Positions 2,352-29,932 of a stretch of DNA of 64,000 nt are shown in pieces. The translations under genes and the position numbers were made by a program. The DNA is from Lutibacter agarilyticus. GTDB taxonomy: Bacteria; Bacteroidota; Bacteroidia; Flavobacteriales; Flavobacteriaceae. Position 1 is the first letter of the stretch, and the number at the start of each line of letters is the position of its first letter. The notes beneath the pieces were generated by a model. It was not told where the DNA came from and did not search any database. It saw only the letters and a list, made by a program, of their open reading frames with translations. The stretch spans positions 186,001 through 250,000 of the forward strand of contig NZ_FZNT01000004.1 of assembly GCF_900188235.1 (NCBI RefSeq). Reading direction: 5' to 3'.

Positions 2352-4298
2352 TTAATTATAAACCGAAAGAGTCTTAACTTCTTCCTGAAACAATGTTGTT
2401 GAACTATTTTTAAAATCTACAAAGTCATCTTTAACCGTTGTTGAACTGTTATTATTTGGAATAAACAAATCATTTTGAGAAGATTTCCAAGGTGCATTAA
2501 ACCAAGCAAGTACCCAAGCAATTCTTATGTCTGTTCCACCTTGTTCAATAGCTGTTAATATATTTGAAGTCCAAAACTTAGGTGAAAGATTAATGTAATT
2601 ATTTTTACCCGTTTCTGTTAAAGCAGCAACTTTTCCGTGATTGTATGCGAAATTTGATAATTGAATTAAATTATCTTTTAAGCTTGATGAGCCTGAGTCA
2701 TACATATCAATCCCTACTATATCTACATAGGCATCTCCAGGATAATAACTTTCATTTAATTGTTGATTTGGAGACCATCCAAATAACACCAAATTTGTTC
2801 TTTCTTTAATATAATCTACGGCCAACCTATAAAAATCAACATACAGTTGAGAAGAATGGTTTGTAGCTTTTGAACCCCACCAAAACCAATCGCCATCCAT
2901 TTCGTGAAATAACCTAAATACAACAGGGAAACCTAAATCATTGTTGATGATATCAATTAATTGATCTAGTTCATCATAAAACCAAGCTTGAGACCCATTG
3001 TTATCTTTTACCACATCATACATTAAACTTTTGTCTGTACTTGAAGTTATATCATTCAAATAAATTTTGTGATCTGTTTTACTTTGTTGGTGAAAATCAA
3101 ATGTTACTATAGATCCGTTATCATAGGCATGTTTAGCCTCATTGATATGAATTTGTTTTTGCTCAGTTATTTTATACAACATATAATGTGGATCTATTCC
3201 ATAAACTGCAGGGTGATCACCTGTAACATCTTTACAGTCTGAAGTATTTACATTATCACTAATACTATTAAGTTGAAATGAAAGAGGAAACTCTTGCCCA
3301 AAAGCAAATTGACTACTATTGGCTATAGAAGCAATATTGGTATATAAATTTTTTGTCATTGCAGAAGCATCAACATCTACAGGCTTATATTCGCCTTGAT
3401 GTCTAATTTCTACATTCATTTCATCTGTAGCTGTTTCATTTGAGGAATCAATAACTTTTAACGTAATTGCATGTGTCCCTAACGGTAAATTAACAGTTGT
3501 CATTTCTGTTGAAGCTATAACGGTATTGTCTAATAACCATTCAAAACTTTTTATAGGAGCTTCAACATCTGAAGAATTTGAGCCGTCTAAATTAACGGAG
3601 CCTTCTGATTCACTTGATGAGATAAGGACTAATTTATCTGGACCTGCATTTGCTATAGGTTTGTTATTTTCTGCTATAATTATTTTAACAGTATATGTTT
3701 TTTTTGTAATCCCATCTTTTTTAAGATCATAATTGATTGGGTTACTAAAATTGTTTTTTGTTTCATTGGATACTTGTTTTGTGCTGCCAATATATAATTC
3801 GCCATCTTCGCTTACCGTAAATTTAGCTGTTAAGTTTTCAAGTTCTGTCCCTGACGGAACAGTTGCCTCTATATCTAATTCACTTATTGAAAATGTAACA
3901 CTGTTTAATTCAACAACACTAAAAGTTAAAATTTTTGATTCAGAATTTATGATTACGGTATATGTTGTTCGTGATCCGTCTTCTGCCTCAACTGTATATT
4001 TTAATGGATTTGAAAAATCATTTTTACTTACACCTGAATTTTGTTGCGTACTACCAACAAATATTTTAGCTTTTGCAGATATTGAGAAAACAGCAGTTAA
4101 ATTTGTAACATCAATATCTTCCGTTAAAATAGTTTCAACATTATTATTTGATGAAATAGTAAAAGTGCTTGATACATCTTTTATTGAAAAACTTATCAAT
4201 TTAGATTCGCTACTTTTCTCAACAGTTTCATCATCCTCTTTTGTACAGGCAGCTACCACTATAAAAAACAGTACTATAATTTTTATATAATATTTCAT
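2352..4298 (-). CDS. Multidomain GH26 beta-mannanase, lipoprotein
   Basis: A 648-residue lipoprotein (Cys18 in VVAAC). After the signal come two tandem repeats of about 85 residues (roughly 35-118 and 120-208). Both contain a 'GST..Q....KN.FSNP..Y' core and end in a TYTV strand, like DUF5018-type beta domains. A PKD-like Ig domain follows (about 213-298, PIANAGPDK...). The C-terminal half is a GH26 catalytic domain with HEMDGDWFWWG (acid/base Glu466) and LTETGK (nucleophile Glu562). The spacer domains would hold the enzyme away from the outer membrane, so this is likely the surface endo-mannanase. It sits between the glycan-binding protein and the smaller GH26 in the same operon. Confidence 0.92.
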   Translation of the reverse strand: MKYYIKIIVLFFIVVAACTKEDDETVEKSSESKLISFSIKDVSSTFTISSNNNVETILTEDIDVTNLTAVFSISAKAKIFVGSTQQNSGVSKNDFSNPLKYTVEAEDGSRTTYTVIINSESKILTFSVVELNSVTFSISELDIEATVPSGTELENLTAKFTVSEDGELYIGSTKQVSNETKNNFSNPINYDLKKDGITKKTYTVKIIIAENNKPIANAGPDKLVLISSSESEGSVNLDGSNSSDVEAPIKSFEWLLDNTVIASTEMTTVNLPLGTHAITLKVIDSSNETATDEMNVEIRHQGEYKPVDVDASAMTKNLYTNIASIANSSQFAFGQEFPLSFQLNSISDNVNTSDCKDVTGDHPAVYGIDPHYMLYKITEQKQIHINEAKHAYDNGSIVTFDFHQQSKTDHKIYLNDITSSTDKSLMYDVVKDNNGSQAWFYDELDQLIDIINNDLGFPVVFRLFHEMDGDWFWWGSKATNHSSQLYVDFYRLAVDYIKERTNLVLFGWSPNQQLNESYYPGDAYVDIVGIDMYDSGSSSLKDNLIQLSNFAYNHGKVAALTETGKNNYINLSPKFWTSNILTAIEQGGTDIRIAWVLAWFNAPWKSSQNDLFIPNNNSSTTVKDDFVDFKNSSTTLFQEEVKTLSVYN

Positions 4299-4382: not shown

Positions 4383-6065
4383 CTAATAACGAGCTCCTTC
4401 TGTTATTACCATTTCATCAATACTAACTGTTACTTCATTGCTTCCTGCTCTTCCAACAATTACCTCAATTCTATCAAACGGTACATCAAAAGCAAATCTA
4501 GTTTTTGACTTATAATGTGCTCCTAAATCTGTGCTATCATCACTCCAATTTTCCATATCTGTATTAAATAAGCTAAATTGAAATGTTTGCCAATCTTTTG
4601 AAGTATTTGGGAAGAATTTTTGAACCATTACTAACTGCTCATCATATTGATACATTCTTACAATTATATATTGCTGTGCATCTATAGAATTTACAGCAAA
4701 TGATAGGTAAGGATCTTCATATAAAGATAAATCTACACTCGACATATCTGTTGAAATTGTTTGTCCCCAGTAAGCTCCCCAGCCTCCTAAAGAACCATCA
4801 TCAACATATGTGAAAAAATTATCACCATAAAAAGGTTCTATAGCATCTTTTCTGAAATCCAATGAACCTATTACTTCGCTTCCATTCATAACATCTGGCC
4901 AGTTTTCAGTATCTTCAAACCCCATAACTACTATTTTTGCAGGTTTTGACGAACCACCAATTACATCTCCAATATCCTGACTACCATCATACTGTCCTTC
5001 AGTTATTTTTACAAATGCAATATCTAAATCTTGATTTGTACCAGCATTACCAGCCTTAAATCCTAATTTAGGTTTAAAATCACCCGAGTTAAATTCTCCA
5101 CCTTCCCAATTAGATTTAAGTGGTTGCGAAATAATAACCCATTCTCCTCCTGTATCAAATCCATATCCAAAATGTCTCCAATTTCCAGCTTGGTCTTCCA
5201 TTTGAAAATAACCACCGCTTCCTACAGGAGTTCTTACTGCAAAAGTTAAATAAGGTGTTACAATACCACTAATATCAGGAACTTCATTTGATGTCATTTC
5301 TCCTGTTGCTTTATCCCAACCATATCCTGGCGCTCTTAAAGAAAAGTAATTAGCTGTTTTTCCTAATACATCTCCATTCTCAACACTTGCAGTTGGCTCA
5401 CCAATATATTCATGTGTACCATCAGCAAAATCCCAAATCACAACTTCTTCATAAGTTATAAATGGATAAATCACATTTACTTTTTCAACTGTTGGAACAT
5501 CATTTTTTGCTAAACTTACAAAGTCAACATCAACTAAATCACCTGCTTTTAAATCCAATCCAGCTACAGAAACTATAATGGCATTCTGTCCTTTTGAAAC
5601 AACAGCCGCAGTTTCTCCATCAATTAAAATTTCATCTAATAAATCTACATTCTCACCCGTAACAATAAATGTTAAACCTACTTGTATATCACTTACTTCT
5701 GATACCGATGATTCTGGTATTATAGGTACAAATTTTTCTGAAGTTGAATACGTTTGTCTATACTCGTTAGAAACGATTATTGGAGCACCGTCAACTGACA
5801 TAGTTCTTGGAACCTGTATTGTTAAGGACTGCTCATCAGCTGAAACTTGTAAATTATCTCCTTTGGTCTCACCAAAGTATACACTTTTCACTTGTGTAAA
5901 ATTTCCTTTTAAAGTAATAGTACTTGAAAGTACATCGTTATAAGAACTTACGCTCGAAATTTCTGGTATTGGCCAGAGGATATCATATTCAGTATCATCT
6001 TGACAGCTAGTAAATCCAGCTAAAAATAATACCATCACAATTGTATTTATGAAATATTTTTTCAT
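4383..6065 (-). CDS. Surface glycan-binding lipoprotein with IPT/TIG domains (SusE/F position)
   Basis: A 560-residue lipoprotein (Cys21 in GFTSC). Residues about 35-200 look like two IPT/TIG immunoglobulin-like domains, with the 'I.G.....V..V.FG' style strands seen in SusE/F-position proteins. The C-terminal part, rich in Trp, Gly and Tyr, has the look of a beta-sandwich carbohydrate-binding region with many aromatic residues. It has no catalytic signature. The place directly after SusD is the usual slot for a surface glycan-binding protein that gathers polysaccharide for the SusCD complex. Function is inferred from position and architecture; the binding domain itself was not matched to a named family. 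Confidence 0.8.
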   Translation of the reverse strand: MKKYFINTIVMVLFLAGFTSCQDDTEYDILWPIPEISSVSSYNDVLSSTITLKGNFTQVKSVYFGETKGDNLQVSADEQSLTIQVPRTMSVDGAPIIVSNEYRQTYSTSEKFVPIIPESSVSEVSDIQVGLTFIVTGENVDLLDEILIDGETAAVVSKGQNAIIVSVAGLDLKAGDLVDVDFVSLAKNDVPTVEKVNVIYPFITYEEVVIWDFADGTHEYIGEPTASVENGDVLGKTANYFSLRAPGYGWDKATGEMTSNEVPDISGIVTPYLTFAVRTPVGSGGYFQMEDQAGNWRHFGYGFDTGGEWVIISQPLKSNWEGGEFNSGDFKPKLGFKAGNAGTNQDLDIAFVKITEGQYDGSQDIGDVIGGSSKPAKIVVMGFEDTENWPDVMNGSEVIGSLDFRKDAIEPFYGDNFFTYVDDGSLGGWGAYWGQTISTDMSSVDLSLYEDPYLSFAVNSIDAQQYIIVRMYQYDEQLVMVQKFFPNTSKDWQTFQFSLFNTDMENWSDDSTDLGAHYKSKTRFAFDVPFDRIEVIVGRAGSNEVTVSIDEMVITEGARY

Positions 6066-6084: not shown

Positions 6085-7677
6085 TTAATAGCCTTTATTT
6101 TGTTCTAACCCAAAAGTATTTACATCTGCTAATGGAATTGGTAATAATCCATCGTGAGATTCGTAATTTCCAGTTTCAGGTAATAAATCAATTTTTCCCG
6201 TTCTTATAATATCAAAATATCTGATACCTTCAAGTGCTAACTCTAAACGTCTTTCATTCCAAATATCTTCAAGTAAATCATCTCCAGTACTTGTTACTTC
6301 TGGAACTGAAGCGCCTGGATATATATCAAATGTAAATCCTGATTTTTGACCCAATGCTGAACCTAATGGAAAAGTACTTCCTTCTGCTCTTGTTCTAATC
6401 ATATTTAAATACAAACGAGCATCGCTCTCCATTCCTTTCATATAAGCAGCTTCAGCATGCATTAGTAAAACTTCAGCATAACGAATAACTCTTTTATTAT
6501 TTGGTTGGTTATTATGATTCCCATTTCTTGCATCAGGAGCTAAAGCATATTTTCTATTTAATCTACAGCTAGTTACAAAGTCTTTAGTACTACTGTGTTC
6601 TAAAGTCCAAACTTGTTTTTCCCAACTTTGCTTAACCCCATATAAAACATCAAATTCTTGACCGTAAATTGTTGATTCTCTACGTGGATCTTTATCTCCA
6701 TATGCATTGTATAATGCATCTGTTGGAAGATTAAAACACCATCCCCAATCATCACGGTTCCCCATTTGAACTACTGTTGTATTACCTACACTTTCTCCCC
6801 ATTCATTATTGGTAGTTTCGTGTTGTACTTCAAAAATTGATTCATTATTATTTTCACCATCTTGTTCAAAAATTGAAGCAAAATTAGCAGCTAATGAATA
6901 TTCACCTGAATTGATAATATCATTTGTTAAGTTGTAAACTTCATTCCAATTGGTCATTACATCAACTGTATGTCCTGACGAAGCAGCTAAAACTGTATTG
7001 TTGGCATATGATGTTTCTTGAATTAAAGCTCTTGCTTTTAAAGCCATAGCAGCACCTTTAGTAACTCTACCTAAATCATTTGCATTGTAACTACCTTTTT
7101 TAGGAAGTACTGCAATTGCATCATCTAAATCTTTTTTAATAAGCGCATACACTTCTGCAACCGACGCTCTTGGCTCTATAAGGTCATCAACTGAATAATC
7201 TGCAGTTACTAACGGAACTCCACCAAACAAAGAAACAAGTTTAGAATAAGAATATGCTCTTAAAAATTTTGCTTCTCCAATTATTCTTTCTTTTAACTCT
7301 TCATCAAAAGTAGCTTCAGGTAATGAATTAATAATCTCATTAGTTCTAACAATTCCTGTGTACAATAACGACCAAGTTCCTGAAGAAACCCCATTTCCTG
7401 CATTTGCAGTAAAATCTCGTACATATTGACGTTCAGCCCAGTCAAATAAATCACTACCTCCTTTTAAGGCATCATCTGACATTAAATCACCATATACAAA
7501 GTATTCATCCTTCGACATTGTTGAGTAGCAAGCATTTAAACCTGCTAGTGCGTTTTCAGGATTATTAAAATATGACTCTGCTGTTTGAGTCCCTATATTC
7601 TCCAAGTCCAAGTCGGTACAAGAAGACATTGTGAAAAATACAATCGTAAAAAGGGACATAAATTTGAAATATTTCAT
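6085..7677 (-). CDS. susD: SusD/RagB-family nutrient-binding lipoprotein
   Basis: A 530-residue outer-membrane lipoprotein (Cys20 in MSSC) with the typical SusD pattern: an early NPENALAGLNACYS helix, the AKFLRAYSYSKLVSLFGGVPLV segment (split here around residues 135-157), then a C-terminal RagB/SusD domain with RYAEVLLMHAEA and ERRLELALEG. SusD forms a lid on the SusC barrel and binds the incoming oligosaccharide. It lies 19 bp after susC, in the same operon. The substrate is inferred to be beta-mannan oligosaccharide from the neighbouring GH26 and GH130 genes. Confidence 0.95.
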   Translation of the reverse strand: MKYFKFMSLFTIVFFTMSSCTDLDLENIGTQTAESYFNNPENALAGLNACYSTMSKDEYFVYGDLMSDDALKGGSDLFDWAERQYVRDFTANAGNGVSSGTWSLLYTGIVRTNEIINSLPEATFDEELKERIIGEAKFLRAYSYSKLVSLFGGVPLVTADYSVDDLIEPRASVAEVYALIKKDLDDAIAVLPKKGSYNANDLGRVTKGAAMALKARALIQETSYANNTVLAASSGHTVDVMTNWNEVYNLTNDIINSGEYSLAANFASIFEQDGENNNESIFEVQHETTNNEWGESVGNTTVVQMGNRDDWGWCFNLPTDALYNAYGDKDPRRESTIYGQEFDVLYGVKQSWEKQVWTLEHSSTKDFVTSCRLNRKYALAPDARNGNHNNQPNNKRVIRYAEVLLMHAEAAYMKGMESDARLYLNMIRTRAEGSTFPLGSALGQKSGFTFDIYPGASVPEVTSTGDDLLEDIWNERRLELALEGIRYFDIIRTGKIDLLPETGNYESHDGLLPIPLADVNTFGLEQNKGY

Positions 7678-7696: not shown

Positions 7697-10600
7697 TTAA
7701 AATGTTACGTTTACACCAAAATAGTAATATCTTGGTTGAGGGTAGTTTCCTAAGTCAACTCCAATACCCAAACTTGAATTATCACTATTTGCATCATGAG
7801 TTAAATCACCAATTTCAGGATCATACCCTTTATAATCTGTAAAGGTTAACAAGTTTTGACCTGACATATAAAAACGAACTTTAGTTAAAAAGCTTTTTTC
7901 ATAAACTGAAGCTGGTAATGAATATCCAATTTGAAGGTTTCTTAATTTTAAATAAGACCCGTTTTCAACATATCTATCTGAAAAACGTGTATTATTATTT
8001 GTATCAGATAATGTAGCTCTAGGCTCAGTTCCATTAGGATTATTTACTGGGTGAAAACGATCCATTCTTGAAGCAAATGCGTTGGTATAATCTTTAACCT
8101 CTAAAGTGAAGATTCCCATTCCATTTACAATTTCAGTTCCAGAAACTCCGAAAAAATCTCCAGATAAATCAAAACCTTTATACTCCATACTAAAGTTAAA
8201 TCCATAAGAAAAATCAGGTGTACCAGATCCCAATTTAGTACGGTCATCAGCATCTATTAATCCGTTATTATTATTATCAACAAATACTACATCACCTACT
8301 CTAGCATCAGGTTGAATAGGATCTCCTCCTTCACTTACATATGCATCAACTTCATCCTGTGTTCTAAAAATACCGTTTGTTTGGTACCCATAAAAATAAG
8401 CGATCTCATGCCCTTTTTCAGTTCTTGTGGTATATCCTAATTTATCTATGTAACCACCATCTAAATATGCGTTTGTATCAGAATTTAATTTTACAACTTC
8501 ATTTTTAATTGCCGTAAAATTTGCTCCAACATTAAATTTAAATTTATCATATGTTTTACCATAATTAGCTGAAAACTCAAACCCTTTATTAGACATTGTA
8601 CCAATATTTGCGTTTGGTCTATCTTTTGGATAGTAACCAGGAAGTGAAACACGGGTAATCATATCTTCCGTATTTTTAATAAAATAATCAGCAGTAATAG
8701 CTAAGTCTCCATTTAAAAAACCTGCATCTAAACCAATATTAGTAGTTTCAATTACTTCCCACTTTAAATCTGGTGTTGGAATATTTGTAGCTGTTCCTCC
8801 TTTATAAGGAATCCCATTAAACACATAGTACATTCCATAGTTTCCAATATTCGCAACATCAGAACCTGCTTGCGCACTAGCTTCATTTCCTACTTGCCCC
8901 CATCCAACTCTAAACTTTAATACTGAAAACACATCTAAATTCTGAATAAACTCTTCTTCATCCAATTTCCAAGATGCTCCAACCGATGGAAAAAGCCCCC
9001 ATTTATTGTCTCCTGAAAATTTACTTGAACCATCATAACGTACAGTACCTGTAATCATATATTTATTCTTAAAAGAATAAAAAGCACGCGCAAAAAACGA
9101 TTGAGTTGAAGATTGCCCTTGATATGCACCTAATTGTTCCTTATAAGAACTAGCCAAATTTAAATAACGCAAATCACTATCTTCTGGCACATTAATACCA
9201 ACACCACTAAATCCGTCATTTTCATTAAAAGAAGACTCTTGACCTAATGTAGCAATCAACTTATGAACATCATTAAATGTTTTATTATAATTTAAAACAT
9301 TGATCCAAGTTCTACTAAACCATTCACCTCTTCCTTCATATAATTCACTATCAGCTCTATAAAAATTTTCATTTAAATAGTAACTTGGCGCATAATTTTT
9401 ACTGTGAGTAAACCCTTTTGAAATATTAATGGTGCTTTTAAAATCTAACCCTTCAGTAATATTAATATCTAACCAACTTCTTAAACCATAAGAATTTGTA
9501 GCATTATCACCATATTGCAATTCATGAACTGCCCACAAAGGGTTTTGGCCCAAAGTTGTTCCTGTTGAAATATAGTTACCTTCATCATCAATACCTCTAT
9601 CCATAGGGCTCGTTTTTAAACCTAATGGCACAGGCCCACTATATAATCCTTGTGGTATGTTTCCATTTTCCTTATGAAATAGATTTATTTGCATACCTGC
9701 TTTAATTCTTTTACTGAATTGAAAATCTAACTTTGACTGTAACATGTATTTTTCAAAATCAGTATTTTTAACCAATCCATCTTCCGTAAAATAAGAACCA
9801 CTAATAGCATACATTAAGCTTCTATCTTCATTGTTTGCATCATTAAAACCACCTCTAACACTTAAGTTGTAATTATTTTGTGAAGCGTTTCTAAAAATTT
9901 CATCTTGCCAATTAGTTCCAACTGAATTATTTGCAAGTACATAGTTTATTCTTGTTTCTAAATCTGTTGGAATAGAAATTCCATCATTCGCAGCTGCTTC
10001 TAATATTAAGCTACCCTGTTGATTGGCATTTAACATATCAACTTGATTAGGAACTTCTCCATAACCATAATAACTGTTAAAAGAAAAAACAGGCTTGCTT
10101 GAAGCTTTTCCAGATTTAGTAGTAACAATTACAACTCCATTTGCTCCCTTATTACCATATATAGCAGTTGAAGATGCATCTTTTAATATCTCTACACTTT
10201 GGATATCTTCAGGAGCTATATGTTCCATACTTGTACCTGAAGGTATACCATCAATTACATATAATGGGTCAGAATTATTTGTACTACTTACCCCTCTAAT
10301 TCTAACTTTTAATCCTGCACCTGGTTCACCCGAGCTTTTAGTAATATTTACACCAGCTACACGACCTTGTATTGCTTGTAAAGGTTGATTTGAAGCAAAG
10401 TTTTCAAAAACCTCTCCTTTTACTTGAGCTACAGAACCAGTTAAATCACTCTTTTTCATGGTACCATAACCAACAACTACCACCTCATCAAGTCCCACTA
10501 AATCCGTTTTTAAAACAATGTTAATTGTAGACTTTCCGTCTACCTTAATTTCTTGGGTAGTAAACCCCATAAATGAAAATGTCAAAATTTCTTGACCACT

Positions 10601-10798
10601 ACTTAAATTAATAGTATAATTACCATCAAAATCAGTTGTTGTACCTTGTGACATTCCTTTAATTACAACAGTAACACCAGGCAAAGGTTGATTACTCTCA
10701 TCAGTAACCACACCAGTTAAAACTTTTTCTTGTCCAATTGAAACCCAAGAGGAAGCTAGAAAGAGCATCATTAAAATAAATCGAAGATTTTTTTTCAT
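7697..10798 (-). CDS. susC: SusC/RagA-family TonB-dependent outer-membrane transporter
   Basis: A 1033-residue TonB-dependent receptor. It starts with a signal peptide, then a carboxypeptidase-regulatory-like domain (about 25-105, VLTGVVTDE to the GFTTQEI region). A plug domain follows with the conserved DEVVVVGYGTMKKSDLTGS stretch (about 104-122) and the IRG / LYVIDGIP / AIYGNKGANGVVIVTTK motifs. The rest is a 22-strand type barrel ending in an aromatic residue (NVTF). It imports oligosaccharides captured by SusD using TonB energy. It is the first gene of the mannan operon, with a good Bacteroidota promoter about 145 bp upstream and putative AraC operators beside that promoter. Confidence 0.96.
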   Translation of the reverse strand: MKKNLRFILMMLFLASSWVSIGQEKVLTGVVTDESNQPLPGVTVVIKGMSQGTTTDFDGNYTINLSSGQEILTFSFMGFTTQEIKVDGKSTINIVLKTDLVGLDEVVVVGYGTMKKSDLTGSVAQVKGEVFENFASNQPLQAIQGRVAGVNITKSSGEPGAGLKVRIRGVSSTNNSDPLYVIDGIPSGTSMEHIAPEDIQSVEILKDASSTAIYGNKGANGVVIVTTKSGKASSKPVFSFNSYYGYGEVPNQVDMLNANQQGSLILEAAANDGISIPTDLETRINYVLANNSVGTNWQDEIFRNASQNNYNLSVRGGFNDANNEDRSLMYAISGSYFTEDGLVKNTDFEKYMLQSKLDFQFSKRIKAGMQINLFHKENGNIPQGLYSGPVPLGLKTSPMDRGIDDEGNYISTGTTLGQNPLWAVHELQYGDNATNSYGLRSWLDINITEGLDFKSTINISKGFTHSKNYAPSYYLNENFYRADSELYEGRGEWFSRTWINVLNYNKTFNDVHKLIATLGQESSFNENDGFSGVGINVPEDSDLRYLNLASSYKEQLGAYQGQSSTQSFFARAFYSFKNKYMITGTVRYDGSSKFSGDNKWGLFPSVGASWKLDEEEFIQNLDVFSVLKFRVGWGQVGNEASAQAGSDVANIGNYGMYYVFNGIPYKGGTATNIPTPDLKWEVIETTNIGLDAGFLNGDLAITADYFIKNTEDMITRVSLPGYYPKDRPNANIGTMSNKGFEFSANYGKTYDKFKFNVGANFTAIKNEVVKLNSDTNAYLDGGYIDKLGYTTRTEKGHEIAYFYGYQTNGIFRTQDEVDAYVSEGGDPIQPDARVGDVVFVDNNNNGLIDADDRTKLGSGTPDFSYGFNFSMEYKGFDLSGDFFGVSGTEIVNGMGIFTLEVKDYTNAFASRMDRFHPVNNPNGTEPRATLSDTNNNTRFSDRYVENGSYLKLRNLQIGYSLPASVYEKSFLTKVRFYMSGQNLLTFTDYKGYDPEIGDLTHDANSDNSSLGIGVDLGNYPQPRYYYFGVNVTF

Positions 10799-10944: not shown

Positions 10945-10975
10945 CAAAATTATGCTGAGAGTGTAATTTTAACAA
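10945..10975 (-). promoter_or_regulatory. susC promoter (Bacteroidota -33/-7 type)
   Basis: Read on the minus strand there is TTG, a 20-nt spacer, then TAATTTTG, which fits the Bacteroidota consensus TTG / TAnnTTTG. The start of transcription would fall near 10938, giving a leader of about 140 nt before the susC ATG at 10798. The pair of 12-mer repeats at 10980-11012 lies just upstream of the -33 element, the normal place for an activator. Confidence 0.6.
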
Positions 10976-10979
10976 ATAT

Positions 10980-11012
10980 TTTTACATCATTAGATGATAC
11001 TTTTACATCATT
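10980..11012. promoter_or_regulatory. Putative AraC operator, two 12-mers spaced 21 bp
   Basis: The 12-mer TTTTACATCATT occurs at 10980-10991 and again, identical, at 11001-11012, a start-to-start distance of exactly 21 bp or two helical turns. AraC-family activators typically bind direct half-sites about 21 bp apart. The nearer copy ends 4 bp from the -33 TTG of the susC promoter. Between the copies lies a small palindrome, ATCATTAGATGAT. The adjacent araC-type gene is the natural binder. This is inference from sequence and spacing. Confidence 0.5.
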
Positions 11013-11181
11013 CAATTATTACAGCGTACTAAAACCAATACACACACATCAAAACAATAGACTTATAATCAAGTGATTAAGCAAAATCTACTTATGTAAA
11101 AAACAAAATAATACATAAAACCATCAGTATAGCATTAGTACTATTTCAATATCAAGCAATACAAATACAACAAATTATTAT

Positions 11182-11195
11182 ACTTTTACATCAAA
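11182..11195. promoter_or_regulatory. Third operator-like repeat before the AraC-type gene
   Basis: TTTTACATCA recurs at 11184-11193, 19 bp before the ATG at 11212, with the same leading 'AC' as the copy at 11001. It overlaps TACTTTTA (11182-11189), a near-match to a -7 element. Binding here could repress the regulator's own gene. The function is inferred only. Confidence 0.35.
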
Positions 11196-11211: not shown

Positions 11212-12084
11212 ATGGAAATACATCGAGAAATTACTCCGTTAAATGAAAATGATTGCTTTTTAGTTTTTGACAGACATAAAAATGATTTTGATTTTCCAAT
11301 TCATTTTCATCCTGAATTTGAAATTAATTTTATTAAAGGTGGAAAAGGAGCAAAAAGAGTTGTTGGAGATCACATTGGGGAAATTGAAGATTTTGAATTG
11401 GTGATGGTTGGGCCAAACATATATCACGGATGGGAAAACTATAAAAATGATAATTCTAAAGAAATGTATGAAATTACCATTCAATTCCCGAGATACTTAT
11501 TTGATGTGCAATTACTGAATAAAAATATATTAAAACCAATTAAAGATTTATTTAAAAATGCAAATCACGGAGTTCTCTTTTCTCAGGAAACCACCAAAAA
11601 CTTAGAAAGTAAATTAAATATCATCAGTAAAAAGAATGGATTTGACAATTTTATTGACTTTCAATCACTACTGTACGACTTAGCAATTAGTCGTGGACAA
11701 AAAATCTTAACAAATTTATCATTTGATGATCAAAATGATTTTCATAACAGCAATAGGATTGAAAAAGTCTTTAAATACATAAAAGAAAATTATAATAATA
11801 AAATTAGAGTTGAAGATGCTGCAAAAACCATCAATATGTCTGTAATTTCATTTAGTCGATTAATTAAACAACGAACAGGAAAAACTTTTGTTGAGTTTGT
11901 CAATGAATTTCGATTAGGATATGCAACACGGCAATTGATTGATACAAATGATAGTGTTTCCGAAATTTGCTATAGTTGTGGGTTTAATAACATTTCTAAC
12001 TTTAATCGTATTTTTAAAAAGAAACAAAACTGTACACCTTCTGAATTTAGAATGAATTTTAAAGTAACCAAAAAAATTATTTAG
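11212..12084 (+). CDS. AraC-family transcriptional regulator (cupin + HTH)
   Basis: A 290-residue DNA-binding regulator. The N-terminal half (about 1-150) is a cupin-like sensor with the FPIHFHPEFEINFI metal/ligand-pocket style motif. The C-terminal part (about 190-285) carries the two helix-turn-helix units of AraC proteins, including VEDAAKTINMSVISFSRLIK and the signature segment VSEICYSCGFNNISNFNRIFKK (given here as its ends: VSEICYSCGF ... FNRIFKK). It is transcribed away from the susC operon and only 3 nt from the sugar kinase gene. It most likely activates the mannan operon in response to a mannan-derived sugar. Many Sus loci use hybrid two-component or ECF regulators instead, so a cupin-AraC control is a variant. 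Confidence 0.9.
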   Translation: MEIHREITPLNENDCFLVFDRHKNDFDFPIHFHPEFEINFIKGGKGAKRVVGDHIGEIEDFELVMVGPNIYHGWENYKNDNSKEMYEITIQFPRYLFDVQLLNKNILKPIKDLFKNANHGVLFSQETTKNLESKLNIISKKNGFDNFIDFQSLLYDLAISRGQKILTNLSFDDQNDFHNSNRIEKVFKYIKENYNNKIRVEDAAKTINMSVISFSRLIKQRTGKTFVEFVNEFRLGYATRQLIDTNDSVSEICYSCGFNNISNFNRIFKKKQNCTPSEFRMNFKVTKKII

Positions 12085-12087: not shown

Positions 12088-12975
12088 ATGCGTAAAATAA
12101 AAGCTGTATGCTTTGGAGAGATTCTTTTCGACGTATTTCTAAAACATAAAAAAATAGGAGGCGCACCTTTAAATGTAATTTCAAGATTAAAATCATTTGG
12201 AATTGATGTTTTGATTATAAGCGCTGTAGGCAATGATAATAATGGCAGAGAGCTGATTGAGTATTTCAATAATCTAGATATTAATTCTGATTCAATCCAA
12301 ATTAATGAAAATTACCCAACTGGAATTGTAAACGTAAGTTTAAATGAGAAAGGAAATGCATCATACAATATAACTCACCCTTCTGCTTGGGATAAAATTA
12401 GTTTGACTAGAGATGACACTGAACTAGTTAGGAATGCTGATCTTTTATTATATGGAAGTTTAGCTTCTCGTGATAAATCTACAAAAAAAACACTATTACA
12501 ACTTTTAGAAGTAGCAAAATACAAAATATTTGATGTAAACTTAAGAGCTCCACATTATTCTGAAAGTACGCTAAAAGAACTTATGGCAGCTGCAGATTTC
12601 ATTAAATTTAATGATGATGAATTGTTTAAGGTTGCAAAATCTTTAGATTCAAAACATAAATCTTTAGAGCAAAATATAAAATACATTTCTAAAAAAACTA
12701 ATACAAATACTATTTGTGTAACCTTAGGCTCTCATGGGGCCGTATTATATCACAAACGAAAGTTTTACAATAATTATGGCTTTAAGGTTGATGTAATTGA
12801 TACAGTTGGTTCCGGTGATTCATTTTTAGCAGCATTAATAACAAAATTATTTAACAAACCCGATCCACAAGAGGCTATTAATTTTGCTTGTGCTGTTGGT
12901 GCCATAGTTGCACAAAATGATGGTGCTAATCCCAAAATATCTCAAATAGAAATTGATGAGTTTCTAAATGATTAA
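12088..12975 (+). CDS. PfkB-family carbohydrate kinase (fructokinase-like)
   Basis: A 295-residue ribokinase/PfkB kinase. It has the N-terminal substrate site GGAPLNVISRLKSFG (about 22-36) and the C-terminal signature DTVGSGDSFLAALI, whose Asp is the catalytic base and whose GSGD forms the anion hole. Length is typical of fructokinases. It starts 3 nt after the stop of the AraC-type regulator, so both are probably co-transcribed and belong to mannan catabolism. A plausible role is phosphorylation of fructose made from mannose by an isomerase, but no isomerase is visible and the substrate is not proven. Confidence 0.87.
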   Translation: MRKIKAVCFGEILFDVFLKHKKIGGAPLNVISRLKSFGIDVLIISAVGNDNNGRELIEYFNNLDINSDSIQINENYPTGIVNVSLNEKGNASYNITHPSAWDKISLTRDDTELVRNADLLLYGSLASRDKSTKKTLLQLLEVAKYKIFDVNLRAPHYSESTLKELMAAADFIKFNDDELFKVAKSLDSKHKSLEQNIKYISKKTNTNTICVTLGSHGAVLYHKRKFYNNYGFKVDVIDTVGSGDSFLAALITKLFNKPDPQEAINFACAVGAIVAQNDGANPKISQIEIDEFLND

Positions 12976-13219: not shown

Positions 13220-14564
13220 ATGCCTAATTTAAATGAATTACTTACCTTTAATGTCAAAAGTGCATACGATTTTCCAATGAATAAGAATTTTTCTAACCCC
13301 AAAATATATACCGCCAATGGCGATTTAAAGAAGCGTTGGTATGTATATTTTTCCTTTCAAAATCCTGAAACTGGAAAATTAAAAAGAGTTACACCATTTT
13401 ATGGAAAAGCCAACAAGTATAAAACGAAGGAAGATCGTTTATATGTTTTATCTGCCTACCGTAAAAAATTATTGGAATTATTAAAGAAAGGTTACAATCC
13501 TTTTGAAAATAATACAGCGTTATTTCAAAAACAACATGAGGCGGAACATCCCAAAGTGGTTTCAATTGAAAAACAGGAAGCAGCTATAAAAACTCAAAAC
13601 CAGTTACACCTGAAAAACTTGAAATAGCTAAAGAGCCTCAAAAAGTGGTTACAACCGATCAAAAAACCATTAAAGAAGCCTTTGAATTTGCGCTATCATT
13701 AAAGAAAAACGTCGTTAATCCTAGAACTTATACAGAATACGATAGCAAGCAAAAAAACTACAAGCGTTTATCAAGAAACAGTATCCGCATATAACTTATA
13801 TAGATGAGTTAACTAAAAATATGGTACTGCAATTTTTAAATAGTGTGTTGCAACGTACCAGTGCAAGAAGTAGAAACAATTATCGTTTGGACTTAAGTAG
13901 TTTAATGCAGATATTGGAAGACAATGAAATCATTGCGTCTAACATAGTTAGGAAAATTTCTGCTTTAAAAACCACCCCAGAACGGCACAAAACCTATTCA
14001 AGCAAAACTCAAGAAGAGATTTTTAGCTATTTAGAAACCAAGGACCCTTTACTCCGATTGTATATCTTGTTTATTTCTTACAATTTTCTTCGACCTATCG
14101 AAGTAAACAGATTAAAAGTAAAGGATATCAATATAAAAGAGAAGTATCTACAATTTAAAGCAAAGAACAAACCTTTTAAAAAGAAGAGTATTCCAGATAT
14201 TTTACTAAATGAACTACCAGATTTATCTAACCTAAATCCAGATGATTATTTATTCACTCCAAAAAAAATTGGAGTTGTTTGGGAATCTTCAGAACAAAAT
14301 AAAAGGGATTATTTTTCTAAACGATTTAAAAGTGTCGTCAAAGATCATTTTGATTTAGGTATAGACTATGGATTATACAGTTTTAGACATTATTTTATCT
14401 CTAAATCATATAACGAACTTGAAAAGAAATACGCTCCTTTTGAAGCAAAAAGTAGGCTCATGCGAATTACTGGTCATGCATCAATGACTGCTTTGGAAAA
14501 ATATTTAAGAGATATTGATGCTGAACTTGCTGAAGACTATTCTGAACTTTTAAAAACAACCTAA
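13220..14564 (+). pseudogene. Tyrosine integrase, disrupted by two frameshifts
   Basis: The N-terminal part (13220-13627) matches flavobacterial phage-type integrases (SNPKIYTANGDLKKRWYVYF; an arm/core-binding region). The catalytic part (13821-14564) has the first Arg in LRPIEVNRLK, box II as YSFRHYF, GHASMT, and the nucleophile Tyr in LEKYLRDI. Between them the coding continues in two other frames: the frame shifts near the A-run 13588-13592 and shifts back near the seven-A run 13751-13757. Reading across gives a continuous protein of about 448 residues. As written the gene cannot make a full enzyme. Either the element is decayed or two homopolymer errors are present. The ATG at 13277 is an alternative start. 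Confidence 0.85.
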
Positions 14565-16263: not shown

Positions 16264-17091
16264 CTATATAAAAGTTTTTTTGTAGTGTTTTTTCAACATT
16301 GAAATTTCTTTAAATGTACCTATAAATTCATCTCCAAACTTATTTAAAAAGTCAATAATAAAAGGTTGATTTAAATTAGCTTTTTTTAGCAATTCTTTAT
16401 CTTCAAAAATAGTATCTGGAACTCCTTTTTCAAGTATTTCACCCTTATCCATTATGATAACATAATCTGCCCAAAAATATGCCCTATTAACATCGTGAGT
16501 TGAAATTAATATTGTTTTTCCTTTTTTATGTAACGTATCTAAATAATTAAAAATTAATTTTGAATACATAGGGTCCAAGTTAGAAGCTGGTTCATCACAA
16601 ACAATTAATTCAGGCTCCATTGCTAATACTGAAGCTAAACACACCCGCTTTTTTTGTCCAGTACTTAATTGATATGGTGGTTTATTTATAATAGATTCTA
16701 GCGAAAAATCAATAATTACTTTCTCTGCTTTTGCTCTTACAATCTCAACATCTTTAAATTTATTCAATAAACCAAAAGAAATCTCTTCATATACGCTAGG
16801 TGCTATTAATTGATAATCGGGTTCAGGAAATAACAACCCTATTTTAGATCGCAATTCTCGTAATCCTTTTTTCTTATAACTATACGCTACATTTTTAAAT
16901 GACAAATCTCCTTTTGTAGGTTTTAAAATACCATTAAGCAACAACATTAAAGTTGACTTCCCTGCTCCATTCCCTCCAAGTAAAGCAATTTTTTTTCCTA
17001 TCGGAATTTCTAAATTAATTCCATTTAAAGCTGTATCACCATTCGGATAGGTATAACTAATATTGTTCAGTTCAATTATATTTTGAATCAT
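16264..17091 (-). CDS. cbiO: Cobalt ECF transporter ATPase CbiO
   Basis: A 275-residue ABC ATPase that powers cobalt uptake with CbiM, CbiN and CbiQ. It shows Walker A GGNGAGKST (about 38-46), the Q-loop region, the signature LSTGQKKR (about 142-149), Walker B LIVCDEP and the ISTHD switch His. The NLDP after Walker B is typical of ECF ATPases. It overlaps cbiQ by 4 nt (ATGA) and is the last gene of the cobalamin operon, which fits cobalt supply for B12 synthesis. Confidence 0.93.
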   Translation of the reverse strand: MIQNIIELNNISYTYPNGDTALNGINLEIPIGKKIALLGGNGAGKSTLMLLLNGILKPTKGDLSFKNVAYSYKKKGLRELRSKIGLLFPEPDYQLIAPSVYEEISFGLLNKFKDVEIVRAKAEKVIIDFSLESIINKPPYQLSTGQKKRVCLASVLAMEPELIVCDEPASNLDPMYSKLIFNYLDTLHKKGKTILISTHDVNRAYFWADYVIIMDKGEILEKGVPDTIFEDKELLKKANLNQPFIIDFLNKFGDEFIGTFKEISMLKKHYKKTFI

Positions 17092-17840
17092 ATTATAGAA
17101 ATTATAAAGGCTGCAACTATTGCCATGTTTACCGCTAAAGGAATTGTTATCTTTTTTATATCGAAATTCAATTTTGGTTTTACAAATAGATATTCATTAT
17201 TTCCTAACCTTGAATCCATTGCTATTTCTATTTTTGAAGTTTGCAGCATAGATTGTTTAAAAACGGCTCCAAAAAGATAGACAAATGAGTTTATTGAATT
17301 TTTTCGAATAGAAGCATAGCCCATTCTACATTTTTGAGCAATTAACATGGTTTTAGTAGTATACATAAGCATATGAATAAACTTATAGATAAGCACAAAC
17401 AACTCTATAAACAAGCTTGTTATTTTACAAACAAACATAATTTCTGCAATTTCAGAAATTGTATGCGTTAATAACCAAAAATACACAACACTTACAATTG
17501 CATAACTTCTAAATAAAATGGATATAGCAACAGGTAATGTCTCCTTGTTAAAATAAATATACGTATGCCAATTTCCATTCAAATTAATTGACACAAGCAA
17601 TGTTAAACACCCTATAAAAATAAAAGCGCTTGGTATTAAAAATAGTTTTAGTAATTTTAAAATTGACTGTTGTGTTACATATATAATTGCTATTAAAAAA
17701 ATGACAACAATACCAATATGAAAAAATATATTAGTTGAAATAATAGACAATATAAATGCAGGTAACACATATAGACTTTTTATGACTACAGGTGTTTTCA
17801 CTAGTTTATGATTGTAATTATATAAATCTTTAATGAGCAT
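17088..17840 (-). CDS. cbiQ: Cobalt ECF transporter transmembrane subunit CbiQ
   Basis: A 250-residue membrane protein with about five to six hydrophobic segments. CbiQ/EcfT proteins couple ATP hydrolysis by CbiO to substrate passage through CbiM. The coupling helices near the C-terminal half carry the expected basic motif region (AQKCRMGYA at about 169-177 is in the place of an A-R-G type coupling motif). It is adjacent to cbiN with no gap and overlaps cbiO, an arrangement that leaves little doubt on identity. Confidence 0.88.
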   Translation of the reverse strand: MLIKDLYNYNHKLVKTPVVIKSLYVLPAFILSIISTNIFFHIGIVVIFLIAIIYVTQQSILKLLKLFLIPSAFIFIGCLTLLVSINLNGNWHTYIYFNKETLPVAISILFRSYAIVSVVYFWLLTHTISEIAEIMFVCKITSLFIELFVLIYKFIHMLMYTTKTMLIAQKCRMGYASIRKNSINSFVYLFGAVFKQSMLQTSKIEIAMDSRLGNNEYLFVKPKLNFDIKKITIPLAVNMAIVAAFIISII

Positions 17841-18125
17841 TTACGCTTTTTGTTTTGAATTTCTTTGAATAAAATAAAATGCTATTACACTTAACCCCAA
17901 AGTTGTTTGAAAAGCGAATAAAAGGGTTTCTCCACATTCTCCTGATGGTTCCCAAATACTTTCAGCCCAAGGCTTATAGTTAGGCGCTAATTCATTAATT
18001 ATTCCAACTGTTTGATCGTCTGTACCTGCAAAATTGGATACAATATCTGCTAAAAAAAACTGCATTGCAATAAGTCCTAAAGCAACAGCAATAATTGTAA
18101 TATTAATTATTTTTCTATTTTTCAT
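17841..18125 (-). CDS. cbiN: Cobalt transport protein CbiN
   Basis: A 94-residue protein with two membrane segments, at the N terminus (about 7-28) and near the C terminus (about 68-86). Between them are the family's conserved elements: FAGTDDQ, then YKPWAESIWEPSGECGETLLFAFQ (here given as YKPW, EPSGE and LLFAFQ), matching the CbiN pattern. CbiN is the small accessory subunit that with CbiM binds Co2+. It overlaps cbiM by 4 nt. Confidence 0.88.
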   Translation of the reverse strand: MKNRKIINITIIAVALGLIAMQFFLADIVSNFAGTDDQTVGIINELAPNYKPWAESIWEPSGECGETLLFAFQTTLGLSVIAFYFIQRNSKQKA

Positions 18126-18859
18126 TTCAATGAAGGATTTATTGTTAGAAGCTCTGTTTTACTGTAATTCATAATAAGCTTAAATACAAAAGCGGTAAAA
18201 ACACCTTCAATTAAAGCTAACGGAACCTGTGTTATAGCAAAAACACTCAAAAATTTATTCGTATTTTCTAATAAACTATTTGTTTCTGATTGGAACGCTA
18301 AAGCTAATTGAAATGAAGTAGCAACATATATTAAAATATCAGATACAACAGCTGCTAAAAAAATACTTAACCATTGTGATAGTTTTAGTTTCAATGCTAA
18401 TTTATATACCAAAACTGCACTAAATGCACCAACAACAGCCATTGAAAAAGCATTTGCTCCAAGCGTAGTAATTCCCCCGTGGGCAAGCAATAAAGCTTGA
18501 AATAATAAGACAATTACTCCTGCAACAGACATAGTAGACGCTCCAAACAAAATTGCACCCAATGCAATACCTGTTAAATGCGAACTACTTCCTGCAACTG
18601 ATGGTATTTTAAATGATGACAAGACAAATACAAATGCTGCTACAACCGCAAATAACATTTTAGCTTTTGGAACTTCTTCTAGTTGTTTTTTTAATTTCCT
18701 ATAACCTATTATTAAAAACGGCGTAAAAATAACCACCCAAAACAAAGCCCATTCTTTAGGCAAAAAACCTTCAGCAATATGCATACTAAATCCTTTAAAA
18801 GGTATTAATAACACACATAAAGCAATTCCTAATTTTTTCATAATAACTATTTTATTCAA
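18122..18859 (-). CDS. cbiM: Cobalt ECF transporter substrate-binding subunit CbiM
   Basis: A 245-residue membrane protein. The mature N terminus, MHIAEGFLP at about 26-34, is the CbiM hallmark: Met-His at the processed end binds cobalt. Before it is a cleavable signal peptide. The second Met (18841, MKKLGIAL) gives a more normal signal peptide than the first (18859), so the true start may be 18841. Further segments include GSSSHLTGIALGAILFG, typical of the family. It follows cobN by 2 nt. Confidence 0.93.
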   Translation of the reverse strand: MNKIVIMKKLGIALCVLLIPFKGFSMHIAEGFLPKEWALFWVVIFTPFLIIGYRKLKKQLEEVPKAKMLFAVVAAFVFVLSSFKIPSVAGSSSHLTGIALGAILFGASTMSVAGVIVLLFQALLLAHGGITTLGANAFSMAVVGAFSAVLVYKLALKLKLSQWLSIFLAAVVSDILIYVATSFQLALAFQSETNSLLENTNKFLSVFAITQVPLALIEGVFTAFVFKLIMNYSKTELLTINPSLK

Positions 18860-18861
18860 AT

Positions 18862-21800
18862 TTATTCCAACTCATTTTCAGATTCCAAAAATAAGTTCTG
18901 CAATTTTTCAACGGTTTCTTCCGAAGGATTTTCCCACATACCTCTTTGAATAGCTTCCAACATACGCTCAGACATATCTTTTAAAGCCCATTTATTATTT
19001 TTCTCAATAAATGCTTTATTCTCTTCATCAAATAAGTAAGATTCTGTAATCCCCTGATACATGAAATCTTCAATTAAATTTGTGGTAGCATCATAGGCGA
19101 ACAAATAATCCATTGTAGCTGTCATTTCAAAAGCACCTTTATAACCGTGATCACGCATTCCGCTCATCCATTTCGGATTTACAACGCGTGATCGATATAC
19201 TTTATGTAATTCCTCTTTTAACGTTTTAATTTTGGGATTATCGGGTCTTGAATGGTCTCCAAAGAATGTTTCTGGTTGCTCTCCTTTAACCTTTTTTACT
19301 GCGGAAGTCATTCCGCCTTGAAACTGGTAATAATCATCAGAATCTAACAAATCGTGTTCTCTGTTATCCTGATTTTGAATTACAACTTCAATATTTTCTA
19401 AGCGTTTTTCAAAAGATTCGTGAGCAGATTTTCCTTCATTTTTGTTTCCGAAGTACGCAAAACCGCTCCAATTGATATATACTTGCGCTAAGTCTTCTTG
19501 TGTTTCCCAGTTCTTTCCGTCAATTAAACCTTGTAATCCTGCTCCATAAGCTCCAGGTTTCGATCCAAAAACCCGGTACAGTGAGCGCTCTTCTGCTTGT
19601 TGTTCAGATAATCCTTTAGCTACCCAATCCTTTTTTTCAGCATTGAATCGTTTTCTTATAGGATTCATTTCATCATCTTCATCCAACGTCGCAATTTTTT
19701 CAATGGCAGCATTAAATAATGAAATTACATCAGGAAATGCATCTCTGAAAAATCCAGAAATACGCAATAAAACATCAACTCTTGGTCGTTTTAATTCTAA
19801 TAATGATATAATTTCAAAATCACTTACCCTCCTATTCATTCCAGACCAAATTGGCCGAACTCCTAATAAAGCAAATGCTTGCGCAATATCGTCTCCTCCT
19901 GTTCGCATTGTTGAAGTTCCCCAAACAGAAATTCCAATGGAGGTTGGATATTCTCCTTGATCTTGAACATAACGATCAATAATATTTTTAGCACTTTTCA
20001 CACCTAATTCATACGCTGATTGAGAAGGAATTGTTCTTGTATCTACAGAATAAAAGTTTTTCCCAGTTGGTAAAATATCTAACCTTCCTCGTGTTGGAGC
20101 ACCTGAACCACCGGGAGGAACATAACTTCCATTTAAACCTTTTAACAGGTTTGTAATTTCATCTTTGGTTCTTGTGATTTTTGGTAACGTAGAAGTTTCG
20201 ACTTCATTAATAACAGCCAACGTTTCAGTACCTAAACCTTCTTTATTCAATTCATTATTTAACAAATCGTCAATATAATTTTTCGCTTTCAGCTCTAATA
20301 TTTCAACCGCTTGACCATAAGTTCTACATTGAATGGAATCTATAAAATGATTATAATTCAATTCAAAATCCACGTCAATCGGATTAAAATTAAGTTTTAA
20401 ATCGTTTGCAATAGCTTGCGTAATCCCTGGATTATTAGTTGATGGTAAACGATGTAAAGCCACCATTAAATCGGTTAATTTTTCACCTTCTGGATGTTTT
20501 CCAAAAATATGAAGTCCACCTCTAATTTGTGCCTCTTTTAATTCACATAAATAACCATCAATTACTTCTAACAATTCATCAATATCTTTACCATCATTAT
20601 TTAAATCGGATTTCAAATTGGTGGTATTCACCAATGCTTCAATCTTACTTTTTATCAAACTAGCTCTTTTAGGATCTAATAAAGCGGCTTCATAAAATTC
20701 ATCAATTAACAATTCTAACTTCAACAAATCCCCATAATTTTCAGCACGAGTCATTGGAGGAATTAGATGATCTAAAATAATAGCGTGTGTTCTTCTTTTT
20801 GCTTGTGTACCTTCACCCGGATCATTGATAATAAACGGATAGAAATGTGGAATTTCGCCTAAAATAGCACTCGGAAAACAGCTTTCTTCACTTAAAGCAA
20901 CACTTTTTCCTGGCAACCATTCCAAGTTCCCGTGTTTTCCCATATGAATAATGGCATCCGCTTTAAAATACTGCTGTAACCAAACATAATACGCCAAATA
21001 CGCATATGTTGGCGGTAAATCTGGTGAGTGATAGGTTGCTTGTAAATCAATATCATATCCTCTACTTGGCTGAATACTTACAAAAACATTTCCTAAACAA
21101 ACTCCAGGAATTATAAAATTGCCATTTCTGTAATTAGGAGAATCAGTTGGGTTTCCCCATTGCTCTTCAACCTTTTCACGTAATGAAATGGCTAAATTAT
21201 TGTAATAGGCAAAAAAGTCACTTGCTGGAATAGTCAAATTTATTGTTGCTGAATGCAAAGAATCAGGATCGTTGGTAATATTCTCCGTTAATTGAGTTAT
21301 TAAATCATCAACAGTATTAGGAATATCTGCCCCTAAATCATATCCAACTTTGTTTAATTCGTGAATTAAATCTACCGTACTTTGTGGTGTATCTAAACCA
21401 ACTCCATTCGCCAATCTGCTATTTTTATTCGGATAATTTGGAACGACTAAAGCAATTTTTTTTTCGTTGTTTTCTTTACTATTCAACCTGATCCAAGCTT
21501 TTACTTGTTTAGCAACCTTGTTACAACCTTCATCAAAAGCAACATATTTTACGACTTCAGAATCGGTTAAATCATCTTTTTCTAAAGCTTCTTTAAATGA
21601 AATAGCTGTAGAAATAATTTTACCATCAACTTCAGGCAAAGCAATATTCATAGCAACATCCGTTGGAGGCAACCCAAAACTACCTTCAGCCCAAGTTTCT
21701 TTATTACAACTTGCCATTATTCCTTGAATTACAGGAACATTAAACGTGTTAAACAAGCCATCTTCAGTAGTTTCGTTAAACGATTGAATTGAAAAACCAG

Positions 21801-22608: not shown

Positions 22609-22626
22609 ATTATGTTGGTTTGATTG

Positions 22627-23649
22627 TCATGATAAAACAGTTTCAGCAATTGATTTCAAATTACGACCAATAATAACCAAGCTTGTTTTTCTTATTTCGG
22701 TTGCTTTCCAAGGTCTGTCAAAATAGTAATCAAAACGCTCGCCAACACCTTGTAATACCATACGCATTGGTTTGTTTGGAATATTTACAAAACCTTTTAT
22801 TCTGTAAATTTCTTCTTGTTGAACACGTGTTTTTAATGTTGCTACCAATTGTCTAATATCAGCAGTTTCAGGATATTCAACAACAATGGTATTGATATCA
22901 TCATCGTGGTCGTGGTCATGATGATGCTCATGGTGATGTTCGTGAATTGAATGACGATTGTCTAAATCATCTTCCGTACTTGCTTCAATCCCCAATAACA
23001 ATTCATTATCAATTAATCCATTTTGAATGGAAATAATTTTTACATTTGGTCTGGCTTTTTTAATAATTAGGTTCTTAACCTCGGCTAATTTCTCAGCTTC
23101 TAATAAATCGGTTTTACTAACCAATACCAAATCTGCACAAGACAACTGATCTAAAAATAATTCTTCAATGGGTATTTCGTGATCCAAAGAATCATCAGCC
23201 AAACGTTGTTTTTGAACTCGTTCTCTATCACATAATTCACCTGTAATCATTCCAACAGCATCAACAACTGTAATTACAGAATCAATGGTTATATGCGGCT
23301 TTAAATCTGGCCAGTTTACAGCTCTAATCAAAGGTTTAGGCATTGCCAAACCAGAAGTTTCTATCACAATATGGTCTATTTCATTTTTACGCTCAATTAA
23401 ATCTAACATAGCGGGCAAAAACTCTTCTTGAACGGTACAACAAATACAGCCATTTGCCAATTCAATTAAGTTGCATTCATCATCTCCACAACCCGATTTT
23501 ATAATATCTCCATCAATTCCAATTTCACCAAATTCGTTTACCAACACAGCAATTTTTTTACCGTTGGCATTTTTAATCATATTGTGAACTAACGTAGTTT
23601 TTCCTACTCCAAGAAAACCTGTTATAACAGTAATAGGTATTTTTTTCAT
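22627..23649 (-). CDS. cobW: CobW-family GTPase/metallochaperone
   Basis: A 340-residue G3E GTPase. It shows Walker A GFLGVGKTTLV (about 12-22), the metal-binding CxCC in NGCICCTVQEE (about 68-78), ETSG, and SKTD for guanine recognition. A very His/Asp-rich loop at about 240-255 (HEHHHEHHHDHDHDDD) could hold metal ions. CobW proteins deliver Co2+ during B12 synthesis; this one is transcribed just before cobN. The C-terminal CobW_C domain is present. Confidence 0.92.
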   Translation of the reverse strand: MKKIPITVITGFLGVGKTTLVHNMIKNANGKKIAVLVNEFGEIGIDGDIIKSGCGDDECNLIELANGCICCTVQEEFLPAMLDLIERKNEIDHIVIETSGLAMPKPLIRAVNWPDLKPHITIDSVITVVDAVGMITGELCDRERVQKQRLADDSLDHEIPIEELFLDQLSCADLVLVSKTDLLEAEKLAEVKNLIIKKARPNVKIISIQNGLIDNELLLGIEASTEDDLDNRHSIHEHHHEHHHDHDHDDDINTIVVEYPETADIRQLVATLKTRVQQEEIYRIKGFVNIPNKPMRMVLQGVGERFDYYFDRPWKATEIRKTSLVIIGRNLKSIAETVLS

Positions 23650-23661
23650 TTGTAGCTATTT

Positions 23662-24249: not shown

Positions 24250-24262
24250 CTCTTTTAATTTT

Positions 24263-29064: not shown

Positions 29065-29065
29065 T

Positions 29066-29827: not shown

Positions 29828-29852
29828 CTCTATTCTCTTATTTTTTTATCTC

Positions 29853-29930
29853 TTCTAAAATTGTCTCACTGAGCTTGTCGAATTGCACTCTTTCTATAAT
29901 TGTCACACTGAGCTTGTCGAAGTGCGCTCT
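29853..29930 (+). repeat. Two tandem copies of a 39-bp REP-like repeat
   Basis: Units 29853-29891 and 29892-29930 share the core CACTGAGCTTGTCGAA with a few differences outside it. Each holds the partial palindrome CACTgagcttgtcgaAGTG. This kind of short intergenic repeat is common in Flavobacteriaceae genomes (general knowledge). It lies inside the cobalamin operon, 2 bp from the stop codon of cbiG-cbiF. Confidence 0.75.
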
Positions 29931-29932
29931 AT

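Follow-up and report, generated by a model that had tools for sequence, protein, structure and literature searches.

In the 64,000-nucleotide stretch of Lutibacter agarilyticus DNA that we analysed (the window), a susC-led operon on the minus strand diverges from the gene of an AraC-family regulator on the plus strand, and the region between them contains repeated words. This raises the question of whether the repeats are the means by which the regulator controls the operon. We consider it highly probable that the repeats serve the divergently encoded AraC-family regulator as its operator, through which it would activate the susC operon and limit its own synthesis.

The word TTTTACATCATT stands twice on the plus strand, at 10980-10991 and 11001-11012. 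A 10-base core of it, TTTTACATCA, occurs again on the same strand at 11184-11193. A search of the letters thus bore out the initial annotation, which had reported a 12-mer at 10980 and 11001, 21 bp apart, with its core at 11184. The shared word is longer than this, since the repeat unit is a 14-mer, RTAYTTTTACATCA, with starts at 10976, 10997 and 11180, which is present as ATATTTTTACATCA at 10976-10989 and as ATACTTTTACATCA at both 10997-11010 and 11180-11193. When intergenic regions matched in length and dinucleotide composition were simulated, 0.025% of them contained an exact 12-mer repeated at a distance of 21 bp, and 0 of 20,000 contained a four-letter 10-mer in three copies. No further 12-mer repeating exactly at +21 was found anywhere in the 64-kb window. 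When two mismatches to the 12-mer were allowed, the window yielded 44 sites against 37 expected, which is the chance level, indicating that the signal resides in the exact word and its arrangement. The repeats are real, and they look functional.

The position of the first pair points to the susC promoter. The proximal half-site (10976-10989, minus strand) is RTAYTTTTACATCA on the plus strand and reads TGATGTAAAAATAT towards susC, and the distal half-site (10997-11010, minus strand) lies exactly 21 bp upstream of it. The proximal half-site meets a minus-strand -33 element, TTTG (10973-10976), which is YTTG in all relatives and which is separated by exactly 20 bp from a minus-strand -7 element, TAATTTTG (10945-10952), of the form TAnnTTTG. 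The earlier placement of the first pair beside the -33 of a good susC promoter was therefore correct, and the string YTTG-N20-TAnnTTTG occurs only twice in 128 kb of strand. With the -7 box placed at -12 to -5 relative to the transcription start (PMC9723704), the predicted susC start is at approximately 10940, the 5' leader is approximately 142 nt long, and the operator extends from -70 to -36, with the distal half-site at -70 to -57 and the proximal half-site at -49 to -36.

We found orthologues of the AraC protein, with 63-77% identity, in loci L022, L023, L025, L045 (G299), L046 (G386) and L047 (G312), which together with the window make up seven loci, and also in L024 of Marinilabilia rubra. 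In each of the seven, two half-sites exactly 21 bp apart precede the divergent gene, and the proximal half-site meets YTTG, followed after exactly 20 bp by TAnnTTTG on the divergent gene's strand. The initial annotation had suggested looking for the 12-mer at the same place in related genomes, and this comparison bore it out: the pair, its spacing and its -33/-7 register have been kept in 7/7 loci in which the regulator lies beside its target. Direct-repeat half-sites about two helical turns apart that abut the -35/-33 element are an architecture of the AraC/XylS family, and it is seen here with a fixed 21-bp spacing and register. The arrangement is class-II AraC geometry, as at araI1-araI2 of E. 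coli, and the predicted activation of the susC promoter follows from it. For all seven loci, leave-one-out matrices run over 7.7-64 kb gave their highest score for a 21-bp pair at the divergent promoter. Likewise, when a matrix made solely from the relatives was run over both strands of the 64 kb, the three sites of the window took ranks 1, 2 and 3, with scores of 19.0-20.5 bits against 13.3 bits for the next match. The linker DNA between the operators is saturated and does not align above shuffles, so that the half-sites are islands of constraint. The occurrence of the same words at the same places in six relatives suggests that the switch is real, with the proviso that the seven loci are not fully independent, L045 and L046 probably being closely related.

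The gene that the operator precedes is not always the same. It is susC in five loci (the window, L022, L023, L045 and L046) and GH26-GH130 genes in L025 and L047. Marinilabilia has an araC gene without a divergent pair. The best match in the M. rubra genome to R1, a sequence profile of the operator that was built without the Marinilabilia sequence, scored 22.7 bits and lies 25.6 kb from araC (L077 8115-8149; G830:C57 ~84115), where it precedes a GH26-GH130-epimerase-MFS_2-GH2 series and has the register YTTG-N20-TTTTTTTG. A genome without an orthologue reached 22.8 bits with R1, so the Marinilabilia score is unexceptional and the weight of this match comes from its location and register. We examined two further orthologue genomes of the Marinilabilia order. 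In G976, the araC-side half-site is kept, but no pair ahead of the GH26-GH130 operon was convincing as an activation operator; in G862, the best pair was rejected as an operator because it spans the GH26 start codon. Since the confirmed targets vary between susC and GH26-GH130, their common denominator is the mannan-disaccharide module, and the common target would be GH26-GH130-epimerase-symporter rather than susC as such. One 14-mer, ATACTATTTTATCT, is found in identical form ahead of a susC-type gene in Marinilabilia (L024 1550) and ahead of the GH26-GH130 operon in G976 (L093 7686), and is perhaps a diverged half-site of the Marinilabilia/G976 branch.

The third half-site (11180-11193, minus strand) is a predicted autorepression site. 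It lies over the araC -7 region, and in an alignment it falls on the araC -7 region of L045 and L046. As the initial annotation had proposed, it overlaps a -7-like element of araC, the plus-strand candidate TATACTTT (11179-11186), though this is a weak match when compared with TATATTTT, TATATTTG and TAGTTTTG of the relatives. A decayed fourth half-site, ATACAAATACAACA (11159-11172, minus strand; weak score of 6.2 bits), lies 21 bp before the third, whereas the better upstream copy in relatives lies at 23 bp; L022, L025, L045 and L046 have paired half-sites 23 bp apart upstream of araC. The upstream half-site starts 22 bp before TATATTTT in L045 and L046, in which the downstream half-site overlaps TATATTTT, and a half-site likewise starts 22 bp before the TATATTTG box in L024 and in G976, which is out of sample. 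Half-sites near the araC -7 were seen in L022, L023, L024, L025, L045, L046 and G976, and no araC-side match was found in L047. The window has a perfect copy over the araC -7 region, a decayed upstream copy and a poor araC -7 of its own. The araC-side half-sites are oriented away from araC. Because the third copy sits on the araC -7 region, autorepression, which the initial annotation had predicted together with activation of susC, is likely: protein bound to the araC-side half-sites would be expected to block RNA polymerase.

Looping between the two operators, which the initial annotation had considered possible, is only weakly hinted at. As a compatible extension of the main explanation, the regulator could additionally repress in the absence of sugar through a loop that bridges both operators, such that induction would include relief of the loop, as at araBAD. 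The susC-side and araC-side operators are co-oriented and lie approximately 172-204 bp apart in the loci that have both, and with one choice of sites five of six loci cluster in their operator distance modulo 10.5 (Rayleigh p ~0.05). However, this clustering is gone when the strongest araC-side site is taken as the reference (p = 0.32). Furthermore, the activation geometry is present in L047 without an araC-side match, and it is kept in Marinilabilia with the activation operator 25 kb from araC. We give repression through a loop a rather low probability.

The operon itself begins with susC (7697-10798), which heads 15 minus-strand genes that cover 24.5 kb with gaps of no more than 84 bp. It is followed by susD (6085-7677), a 560-aa protein without a Pfam match whose position suggests a surface glycan-binding protein (4383-6065), a GH26 enzyme with a PKD-like domain (2352-4298), a second GH26 enzyme (1239-2336) and a GH130 phosphorylase (16-1206), all on the minus strand, and the operon runs on beyond the window. 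The genes after GH130 encode an epimerase of the GlcNAc-2-epimerase family, an MFS_2 symporter, a protein without assignment and a CBM35 protein, and then a sulfatase, an aldo/keto reductase, a second epimerase-like protein, a GH2 enzyme and phosphomannose isomerase (PMI). A susC/susD pair, GH26 and GH130 in one cluster are the hallmark of a β-mannan PUL. From this gene content, which includes two GH26 genes, GH130, an epimerase, GH2 and PMI, the locus is a β-mannan locus, in agreement with its first description as a mannan locus. Sulfatase genes are a recurring feature of the mannan loci that go with this regulator (L044 6179-7951; L045, L046 and L047), hinting at sulfated mannans as substrate.

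The regulator (11212-12084, plus strand) is a 290-aa protein of the AraC/XylS family with a cupin-type N-terminal domain, helices and a C-terminal double HTH. Its C-terminal part, with the two HTH motifs of the family, matches PF12833 (HTH_18, 2.3e-22) and PF00165 (HTH_AraC, 3.6e-17), and PDB sequence and fold matches support a canonical AraC/XylS double HTH. The AlphaFold2 model, built from 26 sequences (pLDDT 81; with 8 sequences the N-terminal part was poor), has seven beta strands, a helical segment, a low-confidence linker at residues 173-178 and the HTH domain. It matches AraC-family members over their full length, as well as the regulatory domains of RhaR and AraC. The Pfam Cupin_2 match is sub-threshold (0.0056), and it is the model and its fold matches that identify an N-terminal cupin-like ligand-binding/dimerisation domain of the kind found in the AraC/XylS family. 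Residues H31, H33, E37 and H72 (HxH...E...H) are invariant in 26 sequences and correspond to classic cupin metal motifs. The assignment as a cupin-AraC regulator, made initially from the sequence alone, is thus upheld by Pfam, the model and the matches. Among orthologues, down to Marinilabilia, the HTH helices hardly vary, which is in line with the conserved half-site. Tandem paralogous cupin-AraC genes, in twos or threes, are found at G032:C8:196466-199243 (L007, L019 and L021) and also in G028 and G013.

We propose that a cytoplasmic mannan-derived sugar, probably mannobiose, mannosyl-glucose or a short mannooligosaccharide, would load the regulator dimer. A β-mannosyl disaccharide or short oligosaccharide is suggested as inducer by the conserved GH130-epimerase-symporter genes and by the induction pattern of the Muricauda β-mannan locus, which excerpts of the published account describe as induced more by mannans than by mannose (PMC9860051). 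At -70 to -36 of the susC promoter, the sugar-loaded dimer would occupy both direct half-sites with their 21-bp spacing and contact RNA polymerase at the abutting -33/-7 elements, and this contact would activate the 24.5-kb β-mannan operon. The same regulator on the third half-site, together with the weak fourth copy, would limit its own synthesis at the araC -7. The analysis establishes the sites, their conservation in a fixed register, their association with this regulator and with mannan genes, and the architecture of the protein; binding, activation, autorepression and inducer are in each case predictions.

In its own 4.1-Mb genome, R1 scored 42.7 bits at the operator and 19.4 bits at the next place, and the operator is unique in that genome. 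Third in rank comes the araC-side site, and those of the remaining top matches that we checked fall in coding sequence. Three secondary matches (L031, L049 and L051) were rejected as regulon members, all being inside coding sequence, and the whole-genome regulon scan returned no target beyond the mannan locus. Among 399 sampled Flavobacteriaceae, matches above 38 bits were confined to its own genome and three genomes with an orthologous AraC, each of which was recovered as the best match of its genome by a second profile, R2, trained without those three genomes. None of 20 araC paralogues from the genus (43-53% identity) has the motif upstream, indicating that it is specific to the orthologous group. 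Words of the form TACTATTT near araC in L002 and several paralogues are possibly related, and no convincing 21-bp pair was found among them. Sampling across the phylum revealed no additional orthologue.

Operator presence thus tracks the AraC orthologue genome by genome, which argues against the operator serving another regulator, such as a hybrid two-component system (HTCS) elsewhere in the genome, while the adjacent AraC acts elsewhere. HTCS do bind DNA through domains of the AraC type, and direct repeats approximately 21 bp apart have been predicted as their sites too (PMC3878776). The orthologue has an HTCS as its neighbour in Marinilabilia and a hybrid kinase in L047, and the Muricauda mannan locus, in the excerpted account, holds both HTCS and AraC types (PMC9860051). 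On the other hand, no HTCS is present among the genes examined in the window's own locus, and the araC-side copy has been kept. We therefore judge assignment to another regulator to be very improbable. Chance similarity within a 22% GC intergenic region, although compatible with the roughly expected yield of the two-mismatch search in such AT-rich DNA, is a negligible explanation in view of the intergenic simulations, the fact that all seven loci retain the word with its spacing and register, and the lack of the operator in other genomes.

Returning to the AraC-family regulator as the protein that would use the operator, the loci could tentatively be seen as those of a clade of metal-type cupin AraC β-mannan regulators in which spacing separates two jobs, 21-bp half-sites at the -33 serving activation and 23-bp half-sites over the araC -7 (L022, L025, L045 and L046) serving autorepression. 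The activation cassette (the pair plus YTTG-N20-TAnnTTTG) may then have travelled across Bacteroidota as one block, shifting between susC and the GH26-GH130-epimerase-symporter operon.

The half-sites of E. coli AraC have a 21-bp direct-repeat spacing and overlap the -35 element. At araBAD, an AraC dimer occupies the adjacent araI1-araI2 half-sites, and further operators lie at the regulator gene (PMC4760080). The window resembles araI1-araI2 (pBAD) in its cupin-AraC protein, its two adjacent half-sites before a promoter and its operators at the regulator gene. It differs from pBAD in its half-site sequence, its Bacteroidota -33/-7 promoter, the lack of any known CRP site, a loop that is at most possible, a 24.5-kb Sus-type mannan operon as the controlled unit and the invariant metal-type cupin residues of its regulator. 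In Bacteroides, the HTCS operators in front of polysaccharide operons are likewise direct repeats, and their sites are on average 21 bp apart (Ravcheev et al. 2013, PMC3878776). They share with the window the 21-bp direct repeats, the polysaccharide operon and the AraC-type DNA-binding domain. However, an HTCS is a sensor kinase in the membrane, fused to a response regulator, whereas the window regulator is a soluble cupin-AraC protein of 290 aa in which HTH domains alone pass the Pfam cut-offs, with no sensor, histidine kinase or receiver among them.

Excerpts of the Muricauda sp. account describe an AraC-type factor, FG28_RS02325, that is expressed within a GH26/GH130/epimerase β-mannan locus (PMC9860051), a likeness to the window that is one of description rather than sequence. 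In those excerpts, the Muricauda locus differs from the window in also having an HTCS, and no operator is mentioned. Control of a β-mannan locus by an AraC-type regulator, which the initial annotation had called not the commonest kind, is thus supported as to the regulator, yet as a control type it had been noted before in Muricauda. A hybrid two-component regulator with an HTH adjoins the AraC orthologue at L024 1697-5737, like the Muricauda HTCS and AraC pair, and the hybrid kinase that adjoins the orthologue at L047 9317-13702 has no HTH match. CgrA (ZGAL_3159) of Zobellia galactanivorans is, like the window regulator, an AraC-family regulator of a marine flavobacterial polysaccharide locus; excerpts of its description present it as a positive regulator whose deletion slows growth on the polysaccharide (PMC5698469). 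Unlike the window, that system concerns carrageenan and a complex dispersed regulon, and the excerpts describe no operator. Our literature search found no description of the operator reported here. The mechanism would be of an ordinary, well-known type, and the operator itself appears to be new, well delimited and well supported. In many marine Bacteroidota PULs a regulator is present and its operator is unassigned; here it was possible to predict from sequence an operator with its promoter register, a regulon of one operon and a class of candidate inducers, and the operator could be used as a genome-scan marker for β-mannan loci of this type.

A gene for a PfkB sugar kinase (12088-12975, plus strand) lies 3 bp behind araC and is probably co-transcribed with it; araC in L022 and L023 has no such co-directional gene behind it. 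Near the kinase gene, the window contains a weak phage-integrase-like ORF (13821-14564) that is below the Pfam cut-off. Past the mannan locus, a cobalamin biosynthesis/cobalt transport cluster (16264-31774) includes CobN-type, CobW, CbiQ, CbiG and CobB/CobQ-type amidotransferase genes.
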